Positions 1,661 through 8,507 of a stretch of 64,000 bases of DNA are shown piece after piece. The DNA is from Clostridia bacterium (lineage in GTDB: Bacteria; Bacillota; Clostridia; Christensenellales; Aristaeellaceae), in assembly GCA_017484085.1 (NCBI GenBank), contig JAFUTW010000026.1:1-64000 (forward strand). The letters are read 5' to 3'. The notes under the pieces were generated by a model. That model did not search any database. It was not told the origin of the DNA and saw nothing but the letters and a program-made list of their open reading frames with translations. Position 1 is the first letter of the stretch, and every line of letters starts with the position of its first letter. A program made the translations under genes and the position numbers.

Positions 1661-1726
1661 TATAAAAGTGGGTTAATAGGACGCGGCATAGCTGTGCGTC
1701 TTTACAATGAAGGGAGGAGCTTGTCA

Positions 1727-3040
1727 TTGGGAGTTTCACAAACGTTCGTCGGGGGGATCCATCCGCACGAGCTGGGAAACGGTAAGGCTGTTAACGGCGC
1801 TAATGCCATTATTGACATGAAAGCGCCTGCAAAGGTGACGATACCGCTTTCACAGCACGTGGGAGCGCCTGCCGAGTGCCTTGTCAAGGTGGGGGATACA
1901 GTCAATCTGGGCCAGGTGATCGGCAGTGCCAGAGGGGCGATCTCCGCAGCCGTACATGCGTCCGTGTCCGGCAAGGTGATCGCGGTCGGCCCTGCGACCA
2001 TCGCCAGCGGCAAGAGCGTCACCGCGGTGACCATCGAAAACGACTTTGAAGACCGGTGGGATGAATCCGTCGTGCCCACTGAGGATCCGGATGCCGGGAG
2101 CATTGCCCGGATCGCCGCGGAGAAGGGCATCGTCGGTATGGGCGGCGCCGCTTTCCCGACCGCTGTAAAGCTGGAGGTTTCCCAGCTGAACCCGAGGCCC
2201 GATATGCTCGTCGTGAACGGCAGTGAGTGCGAACCGTACCTCACCTCCGATCACCGACTGATGCTGGAAGCCCCGGAGCAGATCATCGACGGCGTCCTGC
2301 TCGCCATGAAGGCGACTGGGATCACCAAGGCGAGGATCGGCGTCGAAGACAATAAGATGGACGCTGTCGAAGCCCTTCAGGCTGCGGCAAAGGACGGCGT
2401 TGAAGTCGTGGCGCTGCCTGCGAAGTACCCGCAGGGCTACGAGAAAATGCTCATCTACGCGCTGACGGGTCGCAAGGTGCCCAACGGCGGGCTGCCGTCC
2501 GCCGCACAGTGCGTCGTGCTGAACGTCGCCACCTGTGCCGCGCTGTCGCTGGCCGTGCGCCAGGGCCGGCCGCTGATCGACCGGATCGTGACCGTCGGCG
2601 GTCACGTCGCAAAGCCCGGCAACTACCGCGTGCGGATTGGCGCTTCACTGCTGGATCTGCTGGAGTGCGCGGGCGGCCTTGAACCGGATGTCCGCAAGGT
2701 CATCGTCGGCGGGCCGATGATGGGCAACAGCATCCCTTCGCTGAATATTCCCGTCACCAAGAACTTCGGCGGCCTGCTCGCGCTGGCGGACGAAGGCGTC
2801 GCTCCGGAGGAATCCGCGTGCATCCGCTGCGGCCGCTGCGTGCGCGCCTGCCCGATGGGGCTTATGCCGACGCAGATGGATGCCTATATCCGCCATGACA
2901 ACATTGCGGATGCCGTGCGCATCGGCGTGCTCAACTGCATGGAATGCGGCTCCTGCACATACGTGTGTCCCGCCAAGCGTGAACTGACACAGAGCTTCCG
3001 CATGGCGAAGGCCATGAACCGGATGAAGAACAGCCATTGA
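1727..3040 (+). CDS. rnfC: Rnf electron transport complex, subunit C
   Basis: RnfC is the peripheral NADH-side subunit of the ion-pumping ferredoxin:NAD+ oxidoreductase. The protein opens with TFVGGIHPHE, carries a Rossmann/SLBB-type middle (GMGGAAFPTAVKL, NGSECEPYLTSD) and ends with two ferredoxin-like 4Fe-4S motifs, CIRCGRCVRACP near residue 365 and CMECGSCTYVCP near 404. I place the start at TTG 1727, because GGAGG at 1713-1717 sits 9 bases upstream; an upstream in-frame GTG at 1694 lacks a ribosome site. That gives 437 residues, normal for the short clostridial type. It is the first gene of rnfCDGEAB, the order seen in Acetobacterium and clostridia. Confidence 0.95.
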   Translation: MGVSQTFVGGIHPHELGNGKAVNGANAIIDMKAPAKVTIPLSQHVGAPAECLVKVGDTVNLGQVIGSARGAISAAVHASVSGKVIAVGPATIASGKSVTAVTIENDFEDRWDESVVPTEDPDAGSIARIAAEKGIVGMGGAAFPTAVKLEVSQLNPRPDMLVVNGSECEPYLTSDHRLMLEAPEQIIDGVLLAMKATGITKARIGVEDNKMDAVEALQAAAKDGVEVVALPAKYPQGYEKMLIYALTGRKVPNGGLPSAAQCVVLNVATCAALSLAVRQGRPLIDRIVTVGGHVAKPGNYRVRIGASLLDLLECAGGLEPDVRKVIVGGPMMGNSIPSLNIPVTKNFGGLLALADEGVAPEESACIRCGRCVRACPMGLMPTQMDAYIRHDNIADAVRIGVLNCMECGSCTYVCPAKRELTQSFRMAKAMNRMKNSH

Positions 3041-3060: not shown

Positions 3061-4005
3061 ATGCAAAAGTTGATTATCTCTTCTTCTCCGCATCTTCGTG
3101 ACAAGACGACTACGCGGAGCATCATGCAGGACGTCTGTATCGCCCTGCTGCCGGCGGTCATCGCGGGCATCCTGTTCTTCGGTTACCGTTCTGCTCTTAT
3201 CGTGCTGGTGGCGGTCGCCGCTGCGGTGCTGAGCGAGCTTATCTACTGCAAGGCCACGCATCAGAAGAACACGACCGGCGATTTCAGCGCGGTCGTGACC
3301 GGTATGCTGCTGGCGATGAACCTGCCGGCCTCCGTGCCGCTGTGGATGCCTGTTGTCGGCTCCATCATCGCGATCATTCTGGTCAAGATGATCTTCGGCG
3401 GTATCGGACAGAACTTCGTAAACCCGGCGCTGCTCGCGCGCGCCATGCTGGCGCTCTCCTGGGCAACGATCATGACGAAGTTCCCGGAGCCCGCATTCGG
3501 CAACCTGGCCGGCGTGGATGCCGTGGCATCCGCAACGCCGCTGGCCGCCGGCGGCGCCTACAGCATCGGGCAGCTCTTCCTCGGCAACATCCCCGGCGTC
3601 ATCGGTGAGACCTGCAAGCTCGCCCTGCTGCTGGGCGCGGCGTACCTGCTGTGGAAAAAGGTCATCTCCTGGCACATCCCCGCTGCTTTTATCGGCGTGT
3701 TTGCGGTGTGCTATCTCATCGGAACCGGGTTCAACGTCGGACTCACTGTTTCACAGGTGCTCTCCGGCGGCCTCATTCTGGGCGCGTTTTTCATGGCGAC
3801 GGATTATTCCACGTCGCCCACGACGGATCTGGGCAAGCTGATCTTCGGCGCGGGCTGCGGACTGCTCCTGTTCATCTTCCGCTTTGCGCGCGGCGGCCAG
3901 TCTGAGTGGTGCTCCTTTGCTATCCTGCTGATGAACGTGGTCTCGCCGCTCATCGAGCGCGTGACGATGCCGAAGAGCTTTGGGGAGGTCAGCAAGCATG
4001 AATGA
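3061..4005 (+). CDS. rnfD: Rnf electron transport complex, subunit D
   Basis: RnfD is the multi-spanning membrane subunit, homologous to NqrB, that carries covalent FMN and forms part of the ion path. This 314-residue protein has about eight to ten hydrophobic segments. The family flavin motif appears as DAVASATPLA, whose Thr is the candidate FMN attachment site, and ATDYSTSPTTDLG is the other conserved signature. The start is ATG 3061 behind GGGGAGGTG. The stop overlaps the rnfG start by 8 bases, which suggests coupled translation. Confidence 0.95.
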   Translation: MQKLIISSSPHLRDKTTTRSIMQDVCIALLPAVIAGILFFGYRSALIVLVAVAAAVLSELIYCKATHQKNTTGDFSAVVTGMLLAMNLPASVPLWMPVVGSIIAIILVKMIFGGIGQNFVNPALLARAMLALSWATIMTKFPEPAFGNLAGVDAVASATPLAAGGAYSIGQLFLGNIPGVIGETCKLALLLGAAYLLWKKVISWHIPAAFIGVFAVCYLIGTGFNVGLTVSQVLSGGLILGAFFMATDYSTSPTTDLGKLIFGAGCGLLLFIFRFARGGQSEWCSFAILLMNVVSPLIERVTMPKSFGEVSKHE

Positions 4006-6163
4006 TATTATCAAACTTGGCCTTCGCTTGTTCCTGTTTTCCCTCATCGCGGCGGCAGCGCTTGCGGTGACCAACGAGGTCACCAAGGGCCCGATCGCGG
4101 AGCAGAAGCTCGCCGCCAAGAAAGCGGCACTGAACACCGTGCTGCCCGGCTGCGATTACGAGCAGATCGAATACGAGAACCTCGCGGACGGAAGTGAGCT
4201 GGACGAGATCTTCGTTGGCAAGGACGCATCCGGCAATGTAAAGGGTTATGCGCTGTCGGCGTCTCCGCAGGGCTACGGCGGAGAGATCCCGATCACGATG
4301 GGCGTCAGTTCCGAGGGTTATGTCACGCAGGTTTACGTCGGTGCGCTGCAGGAGACTGCGGGTCTCGGCAGCCGCGTGGGCGATGATGCTTTTAAAGAGC
4401 AGTTCATCGGCATTGCGGCCGATCCGGATACGCTGCGCACGGATGTGGACAAGATCTCCGGCGCTTCCGTTTCCTCCGGCGCATTCCTGAACGCCAGCGA
4501 GCAGATCCTTGCGTACACGAAAGGTACGCTGGGCATCGAGCCGCACGCGGGGGATAAGGACGCGATCCTGGCGGCCGCTGCCGCCGCAAACGGCGGTGCG
4601 GCAGAGGAAGCTGCGCCTGAAGGCGGCGAAGCCGAAGCGGCCCAGGGCGGAGCCGCAACGTATGAAGTGACGGGCTTCCAGCCCTTCAAGGTCGACATCG
4701 AAGTGGACGGCGACGGCAAGATCGTGAGCATCGCGGTGCCGGAGCACAACGAGACACCGGGCCTTGGCGCGGACCTGATCGCTGACGAGGCGGTGCTGGG
4801 CGCGCTGGTCGGGCAGAGCATCGCGGACGCGAAGATCGATGTGAAGGCCGGCGTGACGCTGACCAGCAACGCGATCAACGACGCGCTTGCCCAGGCTGCG
4901 AAAGCTGCCGGCGGCACGGCGGGCGGAGCCGCAACATATGAAGTGACGGGCTTCCAGCCCTTCAAGGTCGACATCGAAGTAGACGGCGACGGCAAGATCG
5001 TAAGCATCGCGGTGCCGGAGCATAACGAGACGCCGGGTCTGGGCGCAGACCTGATCGCTGACGAAGCGGTGCTGGGTGCGCTGGTCGGGCAGAACATCGC
5101 GGACGCGAAGATCGACGTGAAGGCCGGCGTGACGCTGACCAGCAACGCGATCAACGACGCGCTTGCCCAGGCTGCGAAGGCTGCCGGCGGCGCTGAAGCT
5201 GCGGCGGTCATTCCCGGCGACCCGTACACGGTCAAGGGTATGAACAAGTTTACGGTTTACCTGGATGTCGCGGACGGCAAGATCGCGGGCATCACGGTGC
5301 CGGAGCACAATGAGACGCCGGGCCTGGGCGCAGACATGCTGACGGAAGAGGCGCTGGCTGCTTACGCCGGTGCTGATCTCGCCGAGGTTCAGGTGGATGC
5401 GAAGGCCGGTGTAACGCTGACGGCCAATGCGCTTACCGCTGCTTTTGATCAGGCTGCTGCCGTAAACGGCATCCAGAGGAGCGCTGCGGAAGAGGCTGCT
5501 CCTGCGGAAGAAGCTGAAGAGGCCCCTGCCGAGGAGACGGAAGCACCCGCCGAAGAAGCGGAAGCTCCGGCTGCGGAAGCGGAGCCCGCGGCTGTCGCGG
5601 AGAGCGCCGCCAAGGTGTACGAAGTGACGGGCTTCCAGCCCTTCAAGGTCGAACTCAAAGTGGACGCGGACGGCAAGATCATGAGCATCGCGGTGCCGGA
5701 GCACAACGAGACGCCGGGCCTGGGCGCGGATCTGATCGCTGATGAAGCGGTGCTGGGCGCGCTGGTCGGGCAGAGCATCGCGGACGCGAAGATCGACGTA
5801 AAGGCCGGCGTGACGCTGACCAGCAACGCGATCAACGACGCGCTTGCCAAAGCGGCTGCCGACTTTGGACCGGCAGCGGCGCCTGCTGAGGAAAGCGCAG
5901 CCAAAGTGTATGAGGTGACGGGCTTCCAGCCGTTTAAGGTGGAGATCGGGCTGGACGCGGACGGCAAGATCGTAAGCGTCGCAGTGCCGGAGCACAACGA
6001 GACGCCGGGCCTGGGCGCGGACCTGATCGCTGACGAGGCGGTGCTGGGCGCGCTGGTCGGGCAGAGCATCGCGGACGCGAAGATCGACGTAAAGGCCGGC
6101 GTGACGCTGACCAGCAACGCGATCAACGACGCGCTTGCCAAAGCGGCAGAGGAGGCGAAATAA
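3998..6163 (+). CDS. rnfG: Rnf subunit G with five extra FMN_bind-like repeats
   Basis: RnfG normally has about 190-220 residues: one membrane anchor and one extracytoplasmic FMN-binding domain. This one has 721. Residues 1-25 are the anchor and about 26-190 the ordinary domain, with GYGGEIPI, ETAGLG and SGASVSS at residues 154-160. Alanine/glutamate-rich linkers then join five further domains starting near residues 222, 314, 410, 541 and 638. Each holds PEHNETPGLG and, except for the diverged third, GVTLTSNAIND; these match the ETPGLG and SGATxTS elements of FMN_bind domains. The start is ATG 3998, 9 bases after GGGGAGG. The expected attachment Thr is Ser157 in the ordinary domain, while Thr remains in each repeat (about 287, 379, 473, 606, 703). 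Whether all six domains carry flavin is inference. Confidence 0.92.
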   Translation: MNDIIKLGLRLFLFSLIAAAALAVTNEVTKGPIAEQKLAAKKAALNTVLPGCDYEQIEYENLADGSELDEIFVGKDASGNVKGYALSASPQGYGGEIPITMGVSSEGYVTQVYVGALQETAGLGSRVGDDAFKEQFIGIAADPDTLRTDVDKISGASVSSGAFLNASEQILAYTKGTLGIEPHAGDKDAILAAAAAANGGAAEEAAPEGGEAEAAQGGAATYEVTGFQPFKVDIEVDGDGKIVSIAVPEHNETPGLGADLIADEAVLGALVGQSIADAKIDVKAGVTLTSNAINDALAQAAKAAGGTAGGAATYEVTGFQPFKVDIEVDGDGKIVSIAVPEHNETPGLGADLIADEAVLGALVGQNIADAKIDVKAGVTLTSNAINDALAQAAKAAGGAEAAAVIPGDPYTVKGMNKFTVYLDVADGKIAGITVPEHNETPGLGADMLTEEALAAYAGADLAEVQVDAKAGVTLTANALTAAFDQAAAVNGIQRSAAEEAAPAEEAEEAPAEETEAPAEEAEAPAAEAEPAAVAESAAKVYEVTGFQPFKVELKVDADGKIMSIAVPEHNETPGLGADLIADEAVLGALVGQSIADAKIDVKAGVTLTSNAINDALAKAAADFGPAAAPAEESAAKVYEVTGFQPFKVEIGLDADGKIVSVAVPEHNETPGLGADLIADEAVLGALVGQSIADAKIDVKAGVTLTSNAINDALAKAAEEAK
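4661..4915 (+). repeat. rnfG repeat 1 (FMN_bind-like unit)
   Basis: This 85-codon unit begins YEVTGFQPF. It differs from repeat 2 at 12 of 255 bases by my codon-by-codon comparison; 11 changes are silent and one changes Ser to Asn. Confidence 0.9.
4937..5191 (+). repeat. rnfG repeat 2 (FMN_bind-like unit)
   Basis: This 85-codon unit lies 276 bases after the start of repeat 1 and is almost identical to it. Its Thr in AGVT is near residue 379 of RnfG. Confidence 0.9.
5225..5473 (+). repeat. rnfG repeat 3 (diverged FMN_bind-like unit)
   Basis: This unit begins YTVKGMNKF. It keeps PEHNETPGLG and AGVTLTANA but is otherwise clearly different from the other four, so it is either older or under different selection. 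A Glu/Ala/Pro-rich linker of about 45 residues follows. Confidence 0.85.
5618..5863 (+). repeat. rnfG repeat 4 (FMN_bind-like unit)
   Basis: This unit begins YEVTGFQPF and closely matches repeats 1, 2 and 5. It sits after the acidic Glu/Ala/Pro linker. Confidence 0.88.
5909..6160 (+). repeat. rnfG repeat 5 (FMN_bind-like unit, C-terminal)
   Basis: The last unit ends the protein at ALAKAAEEAK, with no tail after it. It starts 291 bases after repeat 4 and closely matches it at DNA level. Confidence 0.88.
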
Positions 6164-6166
6164 ACG

Positions 6167-6763
6167 ATGAAAGATCTGATCAGGGTTTTTAAGAACGGTT
6201 TGTTGGATGAGAACCCGACATTCCGTATGGTGCTCGGCACCTGTCCCACTCTGGCCATTACGACCGCTGCCAGCAACGGCATCGGCATGGGCCTGGCCGC
6301 GACGTTCGTGCTGGTCTTCTCCAACCTCGTCATTTCGCTGCTGCGGAAGATGATCCCGGACGAGATCCGTATTCCCGCATTCATCGTGGTCATCGCGACC
6401 TTCGTTACCATCGTGCAGCTGGTCATCAAGGCCTATCTGCCGGCGCTGGATGAGTCGCTCGGCCTGTTTATCCCGCTCATCGTCGTCAACTGCATCATCT
6501 TTGCCAGGGCGGAAGCGTTTGCCTTCAAGAACCCGCCGCTTCCCTCCATCGCGGATGGTCTCGGCATGGGCCTCGGCTTTACCTGGGCTATCACGTTCAT
6601 CTCCAGCGTCCGTGAGATCTTCGGCGCCGGGACCTGGTTTGGCATGCAGGTGATGCCGGAGAGCTACATCCCCATGGGGATCCTCGTCCGTCCCGCCGGC
6701 GGCTTCATCATTTTCGGTCTTGCGATCGTGCTGATGAATGCCGTCATGCCGAAGAAAGCGTAA
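6167..6763 (+). CDS. rnfE: Rnf electron transport complex, subunit E
   Basis: RnfE is one of two homologous six-helix membrane subunits (with RnfA) that together hold an Fe-S centre in the membrane and form part of the ion channel. The 198-residue protein has the family motifs NPTFRMVLGTCPTLAITT near the N terminus, with the conserved Cys, and VNCIIFARAEAFA in the middle. The start ATG is 3 bases after the rnfG stop, and its GGAGG ribosome site lies inside the end of rnfG, so it is probably translationally linked to it. Confidence 0.95.
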   Translation: MKDLIRVFKNGLLDENPTFRMVLGTCPTLAITTAASNGIGMGLAATFVLVFSNLVISLLRKMIPDEIRIPAFIVVIATFVTIVQLVIKAYLPALDESLGLFIPLIVVNCIIFARAEAFAFKNPPLPSIADGLGMGLGFTWAITFISSVREIFGAGTWFGMQVMPESYIPMGILVRPAGGFIIFGLAIVLMNAVMPKKA

Positions 6764-6775
6764 GGAGGGGAGAGC

Positions 6776-7354
6776 ATGCTGTCTGATATCTTGGTCGTCA
6801 TGATCGGCGCCATATTCGTCAACAACTTCGTCATGTCGAGATTCCTCGGCATCTGCCCCTTCCTCGGCGTTTCCAAGAAGCTGGAAACCGCTTTCGGCAT
6901 GGGTATGGCCGTTACCTTCGTTATGGCCATCGCGTCGCTCGTTTCCTATCTGGTCAACGCGTTCATCCTCATCCCGCTGGATATGGAATACCTGCAGACG
7001 ATCGCGTTCATCCTCGTCATCGCGGTGCTGGTGCAGATCGTGGAAATGGCCCTCAAGAAGATGGTGCCTTCCCTCTATCAGGCGCTGGGCGTATACCTGC
7101 CCCTGATCACGACGAACTGCGCCGTCCTCGGTGTCGCGCAGCTCAACGTGACGGAAGGCTACGGCCTTATCCTCTCCGTTGTCAACGGCATCGCTTCCGC
7201 TTTGGGCTACACGCTGGCGATCTGCCTGTTTGCGGGCATCCGTGAGCGGCTGGCCATCGGCAACCTGCCGAAGTGGATGGAAGGCTTCCCCGGAGCGCTG
7301 ATCGCTGCCGGACTGATGGCTGTCGCGTTCAACGGCTTCAGCGGACTGATTTGA
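6776..7354 (+). CDS. rnfA: Rnf electron transport complex, subunit A
   Basis: RnfA is the inverted-topology partner of RnfE. The 192-residue protein has six hydrophobic segments and the conserved motifs NNFVMSRFLGICPFLGVS and LITTNCAVLG, each with the Cys expected to ligate the intramembrane Fe-S cluster. An AAGGAGGGGAG ribosome site precedes the ATG. Length and position between rnfE and rnfB are canonical. Confidence 0.95.
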   Translation: MLSDILVVMIGAIFVNNFVMSRFLGICPFLGVSKKLETAFGMGMAVTFVMAIASLVSYLVNAFILIPLDMEYLQTIAFILVIAVLVQIVEMALKKMVPSLYQALGVYLPLITTNCAVLGVAQLNVTEGYGLILSVVNGIASALGYTLAICLFAGIRERLAIGNLPKWMEGFPGALIAAGLMAVAFNGFSGLI

Positions 7355-7382: not shown

Positions 7383-8507
7383 GTGAGTATTGCTGCGATT
7401 GTAATCGCCGCCGTGGTCCTGGGCGTCATGGGCCTCATCTTCGGAGCGCTGCTGGGCGTGACAGGCCGCGTATTTGCGATTGAAACCAACCCCAAGATCG
7501 GGGAACTGCGCGAGATCCTTCCCGGCGCCAACTGCGGCGCCTGCGGCTTCCCGGGCTGTGACGGCTATGCCGCCGCAGTGGCGGAGGGAAAAGCGGAAAT
7601 CGGCCTTTGCGCACCGGGCGGCGCGGCCGCTGCCGCAAAAATGGGCGAGATCATGGGCGTGGCAGCCGGCGTGGGTGCCCGCCAGGTCGCGACCGTGACC
7701 TGCCAGGGCTACGGCGATCACTGTGCGCCCAAGGCGGAGTATGAAGGCCTGCACGACTGCGTGGCCGCTTCCCTCGTAAACAACGGGACCAAGGCCTGCC
7801 AGTATGCCTGCCTCGGCCTGGGGACCTGCGAGCGCGTATGCCCGTTCGACGCCATCCACATCGATCCGGTCAAGAAGATCGCGGTCGTGGATGAGGAGAA
7901 GTGCCAGGCCTGCAAGAAGTGCGTCGCGGCTTGCCCGCAGCACGTGCTGGTGATGCGGCCTGCGGAGCGAGCGGTTTCCGTCGGCTGCCACAACCCCGAA
8001 AAGGGCATGGCGCTGAAGGAGAAGTGCGACCGGGCCTGTGTGGCTTGCGAAGCCTGTGTGAAGGCGTGCCCGTTTGAAGCGATCCACATGGAGAACGGCG
8101 TACCGGTCACCGATTACGAGAAGTGCGTCGGCTGCATGGCGTGCGTCGACGCGTGCCCGACCGGCGCGATGGAAGGCAACCTGGCAGAGCGCAAGGAAGC
8201 TTACATCGATCCCGACAAGTGCATCGGCTGCACGATCTGCGCCAAGCAGTGCAAGTTTGACGCGATCGAGGGCGAGCTGAAGAAGAAGCACAAGGTGCTC
8301 GGCGCCTGCACCGGCTGCGGCCTCTGCGCGGCAAAGTGCCCGAAGAAGGCCATCACGATGCGGGACCGCCGCGCACCCAGGAACAAGCTGGACAAGGTGA
8401 AGAAGGCGCCGGCTGCGAAGCCTGCCGCCGCGGCAGCCAAGCCCGCTGCACCGGTAAAGCCGGCAGCGCCCAAGGCTGCCCCGGCTGAAGCTGAAAAGAA
8501 AGAATAA
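7383..8507 (+). CDS. rnfB: Rnf electron transport complex, subunit B (polyferredoxin)
   Basis: RnfB is the membrane-anchored polyferredoxin that takes electrons from reduced ferredoxin. The 374-residue protein has an N-terminal membrane helix (about residues 3-24), a 4Fe-4S domain with CGACGFPGC, and six more cysteine groups, including [47 protein letters not shown] and [12 protein letters not shown]. This cluster-rich form is typical of clostridial rather than proteobacterial RnfB. The C-terminal 45 residues are Lys/Ala/Pro-rich and probably flexible. The start is GTG 7383, 9 bases after GGGAGG. It is the last gene of the operon. Confidence 0.95.

Follow-up and report, generated by a model that had tools for sequence, protein, structure and literature searches.

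A six-domain RnfG in a Clostridia rnf operon and its possible role as an electron outlet

Why does an RnfG subunit carry six FMN_bind domains, and what would the additional five do? RnfG is described as a carrier of electrons between RnfA/E and RnfD on the outside of the membrane (PMC12174285). RNF clusters with "multi-flavinylated RnfGs", defined as having more than one FMN-binding domain, were described by Meheust et al. in 2021 (eLife, PMC8238504), together with the proposal of a second electron path from Rnf to extracytosolic acceptors. The function of multi-flavin proteins is called unclear in PMC11334425, and among the titles listed by a search of the literature, with most subscription journals outside its coverage, none concerned an experiment on an RnfG array. 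The locus considered here lies in the window, meaning the whole 64-kb stretch of DNA that was analysed, from a Clostridia bacterium.

Domains and motifs of the enlarged RnfG

The window carries a complete rnfCDGEAB operon on the + strand, in which rnfG (3998-6163), a frame of 721 amino acids recognized by its translation, Pfam and TIGR01947, sits between rnfD (3061-4005; TIGR01946, 288 bits), the sole member of the NqrB/RnfD family found in the genome, and rnfE (6167-6763; TIGR01948, 236 bits), with rnfC (1694-3040; TIGR01945, 473 bits) ahead of them and rnfA (6776-7354; TIGR01943, 266 bits) and rnfB (7383-8507; TIGR01944, 175 bits) behind. The initial annotation had read this RnfG as enlarged by five additional FMN_bind domains, and this holds: Pfam FMN_bind matches the protein with 243.5 bits over six stretches, giving six places within 3998-6163, the first of them at 4271-4510 and all above the curated cut-off, and its 721 residues compare with approximately 180-260 in the RnfGs of single-domain relatives. 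The rnfG model TIGR01947 scores 193.2 bits on the entire protein (cut-off 102) but 94 bits on domain 1 alone, so that the identity of the gene also leans on its operon. No other FMN_bind protein was found within the window. Just upstream of rnfC, at 305-1516, lies the beta subunit of a sodium-ion-translocating decarboxylase (TIGR01109, 475 bits), partly visible ahead of rnfC in a relative (L070) too, a neighbourhood that suggests linked sodium energetics.

The N-terminal hydrophobic helix (residues 8-25, 4019-4072, +), read by eye, is a putative membrane anchor that would place the remainder of the protein on the outer face. The N-terminus aligns from residue 4 to the solved RnfG 9eri_G, and the anchor, domain 1 and the operon partners correspond to those of the single-domain RnfGs of 9eri and 7zc6, whose chains of 207 and 189 residues, respectively, cannot hold a five-domain array. 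Domain 1 (4271-4522) is of the RnfG type, and its motif DKISGAS (4448-4468) contains the Ser/Thr for flavin attachment. Five repeat domains follow on the same strand: domains 2 (4682-4900) and 3 (4958-5176), with the motif DVKAGVT at 4838-4858 and 5114-5134; domain 4 (5249-5458), the most diverged repeat, with DAKAGVT at 5396-5416; and, after an Ala/Glu/Pro-rich linker of about 50 residues (approximately 489-540, 5462-5617, +), domains 5 (5639-5857) and 6 (5930-6148), with DVKAGVT at 5795-5815 and 6086-6106. The elements said at the outset to be retained are present, as ETPGLG (five times) and ETAGLG (once), and as the GVT motif in domains 2 to 6. The CxxCH haem motif is absent from the protein sequence of this RnfG.

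Are these repeats able to bind FMN covalently? In their motif D[V/A]KAGVT, Asp, Gly and Thr are kept, and AGVT replaces [S/T]GA[S/T] in all five, while SGAT or TGAT stands at this position in some relatives. Among 104 repeats of 23 proteins of the genus, including the protein of the window, three are cut by contig ends before the attachment site; Thr occupies the site in 101 of the 101 repeats that reach it, Gly is likewise invariant, the motif Ala is replaced by Val in 76 of them, and the motif Ser/Thr by Ala in 46. Two reductase FMN_bind domains of the same genome themselves carry TGVT or AGVT. According to a test described in PMC12052999, an Ala-to-Val change in the flavinylation motif lowers flavinylation (approximately 50%). 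With Thr and Gly kept, but Val at the Ala position, FMN attachment to the five repeats is, judging from sequence, likely and perhaps partial. Compared by sequence profile, the solved structure nearest to the repeats is PDB 8p2b, named CbFMN4 domain 1, a domain reported to contain covalent FMN (PMC10339131), the report and the structure being tied by the name of the molecule. ApbE, which the initial annotation had suggested looking for, has two matches in the genome (189 and 176 bits).

Conservation of the array and its known counterparts

Repeats 2, 3, 5 and 6 are 91-95% identical in DNA, domain 4 being more diverged, and their pairwise comparison yields a dN of 0.005-0.057 for a dS of 0.21-0.35 (dN/dS approximately 0.03-0.2), indicating that the repeats are maintained as protein by purifying selection. 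An RnfG frame was detected in 22 of the 28 other members of the genus and is enlarged in all 22, with 5-9 domains in the nine complete frames and 2-7 domains so far in the 13 that reach a contig end. The domain numbers of the complete frames (nine out of nine) and the dN/dS values together exclude chance, and the six-domain RnfG is real and conserved in the genus. The assembly of such a repeat array is fragile. Could the array then be an artefact, given that its repeats are nearly identical and that 13 of the 22 other frames end inside it? This is very improbable in view of the complete arrays of nine other genus members, and of a 3.97 Mb contig of G069 that carries eight domains, although the frames that run off their contigs make the exact count of six less certain.

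Counting domains and residues in RnfG homologs, as had been proposed initially, gives one or two domains for most named relatives: among the best 80 named loci retrieved via RnfE, 61 have an RnfG frame, in which 5-9 domains were counted in seven cases and one or two in the other 54. The relatives among the RnfE matches listed include Christensenella sp., Limiplasma and Pullichristensenella, with rumen and rectum as sample sources, which suggests gut-dwelling Christensenellales, although NCBI assigns Limiplasma and Pullichristensenella no more closely than to Clostridia; the nearest named relative is RUG12645, whose RnfE is 97% identical and whose RnfG has five domains. The RnfG of UBA4263 has nine domains, with the canonical motif in all but one.

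The six-domain RnfG thus belongs to an already described kind, of which it is a further, conserved example: it has more than one FMN_bind domain and lies in a complete rnf operon, like the multi-flavinylated RnfGs of PMC8238504, for which the same second path was proposed. It differs from the Christensenellales multihaem subset named in that work by its lack of CxxCH. The idea that fusion to RnfG is unusual has therefore to be corrected, since a 2021 study had already described such proteins and drawn nearly the same conclusion (PMC8238504), and since enlarged RnfGs occur not just in 22 of the 28 other genus members but also in several additional genera of this family. Free multi-flavinylated proteins, SaFMN3 and CbFMN4, have been purified with covalent FMN, and the mass of SaFMN3 fits all three flavins (PMC10339131); they share tandem FMN_bind domains with the array, but are separate proteins, whereas the array is here fused to an Rnf subunit.

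Arrangement and origin of arrays in the family

How are such arrays arranged in other genera? In g1 (the genus of the window) and g34, they are extensions of RnfG inside rnfCDGEAB, in g7, g33 and g36 the enlarged RnfG heads the operon, and in g39 the array RnfG gene lies apart from the other rnf genes, RnfD being on a different contig. Four g35 genomes, in which RnfD and RnfG are fused, encode the array as a gene of its own behind rnfB, and in three of these four the array protein also bears a cytochrome c552 (L190:5476-8670, L192:5278-8310 and L180:5607-8501, each directly after rnfB); these are possibly the multihaem proteins described by Meheust et al. G108 and G309, also of g35, are unfused and have RnfGs of three and two domains, respectively. 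An ApbE gene immediately precedes the enlarged RnfG in three relatives (two of g39, and G309). In one of the two g39 arrays, the nine-domain RnfG at L188:2673-5873, Arg replaces the motif Gly in six late repeats, which read [S/T]RAT. An RnfG with four domains is also found in another family (G055).

RnfD and RnfG share one frame of approximately 520-570 amino acids in several genera of the order (loci L053, L054, L180, L185, L190-L192 and L197-L203), the fusion being demonstrated by Pfam for L053 and L054. Fifteen frames of 516-570 amino acids had been candidates for enlarged RnfGs; 13 of them proved to be RnfD-RnfG fusions with one FMN_bind domain, and the remaining two (G204 and G291) are arrays truncated at the end of a contig. 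Two rnf operons (L211 and L197) are present in G327, one carrying an RnfD-RnfG fusion and the other a three-domain RnfG, with an upstream frame that resembles ApbE by eye.

A FastTree phylogeny of RnfD and RnfE from 32 loci, with g3, g5, g37 and g39 outside the tree, places the arrays of the family in three groups, one of them weakly supported. The array-bearing g1 and g34 (0.89) group with the single-domain g8 (0.91) and g6 (0.96), the array group of g7, g33 and g36 (0.46, weak) goes with the single-domain g2 (0.997), and g35 (0.99) falls within the fusion clade. This distribution fits separate gains of arrays within the family, while losses or transfer of rnf genes may instead be responsible.

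Are the repeats copies of RnfG's own domain? In the genus, sequence comparisons lean against it: of the 104 genus repeats, 96 score higher with a profile built on 15 reductase-type FMN_bind domains from the genome of the window than with one built on 55 single-domain RnfGs, and none of the 23 first domains does so, a test biased towards reductases because the reductase profile was built from this genome. In a domain tree, one reductase domain is joined (support 0.71) by all repeats of g1 and by six of the seven from g34; the seventh g34 repeat lies nearer to RnfG-type domains, as do those of g33 and g36 and some of g7. Judging from these sequence comparisons, a construction from reductase-type domains is suggested for g1 and g34 only.

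A possible outlet from Rnf to secreted reductases

What, then, could the array be used for? It is probably an outlet through which electrons leave Rnf for secreted flavin reductases; the flow of electrons and its direction, the secretion of the reductases and their pairing with the array are what we infer here. Domain 1 would keep the ordinary RnfG task between RnfA/E and RnfD, and domains 2 to 6, tethered, covalently flavinylated and connected by linkers of which some are long and rich in Ala, Glu and Pro, would take electrons off the Rnf path and hand them to secreted proteins whose own FMN_bind domains are similar. The main acceptors would be reductases of the fumarate/urocanate type that combine FMN_bind with FAD_binding_2, and Rnf would act as the membrane electron source of a quinone-free respiration. 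Candidate partners are numerous in the genome of the window, where 19 other frames contain 20 additional FMN_bind places; FAD_binding_2 was found in seven of the eight further FMN_bind proteins tested and is absent from one, and the N-termini of the FMN_bind reductases resemble signal peptides, by eye. The UbiA prenyltransferase has no match in this genome, whereas 14 out of 14 controls match, a result of limited weight since the genome is 80.75% complete.

Across the family, Rnf-linked domains covary with other FMN_bind places: genomes with at least four Rnf-linked domains (23 of 32) have 2-27 other places and those with fewer than four (9 of 32) have 0-2, with a genus-level rank correlation of 0.80 over 14 genera that ignores relatedness. 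The underlying table, compiled by hand with domain counts from our own profile and genome totals from Pfam, keeps 32 of the 59 family genomes; 20 with incomplete or unresolved frames were dropped (13 of g1, and G060, G172, G204, G247, G291, G264 and G327), as were seven with no recognized RnfG frame (six of g1, and G273). The kept row of G123 has an incomplete array, and the FMN_bind totals of G069 and G300 are lower bounds (18 candidates scored). From other families, the 14 genomes whose RnfG domains had been counted (G040 was not entered) have 0-4 other places. G055, in spite of its four-domain RnfG, has just one, and G327, outside the table, combines its three-domain RnfG with 15 FMN_bind places, contradicting a simple threshold, so that the covariation is a tendency and not a strict rule.

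The outlet is supported by the six FMN_bind domains in the operon, the kept Thr, ApbE and the covariation, and also by the separate array with cytochrome c552 of relatives, the genome without UbiA and its one RnfD. It is weakened by a motif departing from D-x-x-[S/T]-G-A-[S/T] at two positions, by a covariation that may reflect shared ancestry, by a window encoding no further FMN_bind protein, by G327, and by a NapH-like protein that may supply electrons. The latter (L210:3580-4980), the single Fer4_5 protein of the genome, is the less probable source: its fusion to a redoxin domain, with no FMN_bind found in it, makes a thiol role seem likelier.

Other uses of the array must be weighed against this outlet. 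The extra flavins might simply store electrons close to the pump and even out its turnover, with no dedicated downstream enzyme. The near identity of repeats 2, 3, 5 and 6 suggests similar potentials, as in SaFMN3, whose three similar domains show a single potential of -184 mV (PMC10339131), and the variation of domain number across species (5-9 in complete genus frames) would suit such a buffer, which nevertheless leaves unexplained both the covariation and the joining of the array to cytochrome c552 in relatives; we regard it as rather unlikely. A similarly small chance is given to an outlet towards acceptors that are insoluble or lie outside the cell, for example iron or humics: longer-distance transfer has been proposed for multi-flavinylated proteins (PMC8238504), but the genome is rich in FMN_bind reductases instead. 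Repeats that fold as FMN_bind and carry no flavin, merely spacing or anchoring domain 1, would account for AGVT in place of SGAT, and are still less probable given the invariant Thr and Gly and the two reductase domains with TGVT or AGVT. As for the initial annotation, which proposed an extracytoplasmic multi-flavin wire or store, the chain tied to Rnf remains the best-supported reading, and a flavin store is unlikely because attachment by ApbE is described as irreversible (PMC12052999).

Extended to the family, a tentative and rather less secure possibility is that Rnf became a hub of quinone-free respiration more than once, with the array feeding a large and exchangeable set of secreted FMN_bind/FAD reductases and, in the genus of the window, deriving from reductase-type domains. 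The present analysis adds comparative evidence, namely the occurrence of arrays in distinct parts of the Rnf tree, their link to cytochrome c552 in relatives and their covariation with other FMN_bind places. The family also offers a natural comparison set for testing the function of multi-flavin proteins, as its arrays are fused, separate, joined to a cytochrome or absent. If the array is an outlet, Rnf would serve not just as a ferredoxin:NAD pump but also as the point where electrons enter a respiration through secreted reductases, in bacteria that perhaps have no quinones.
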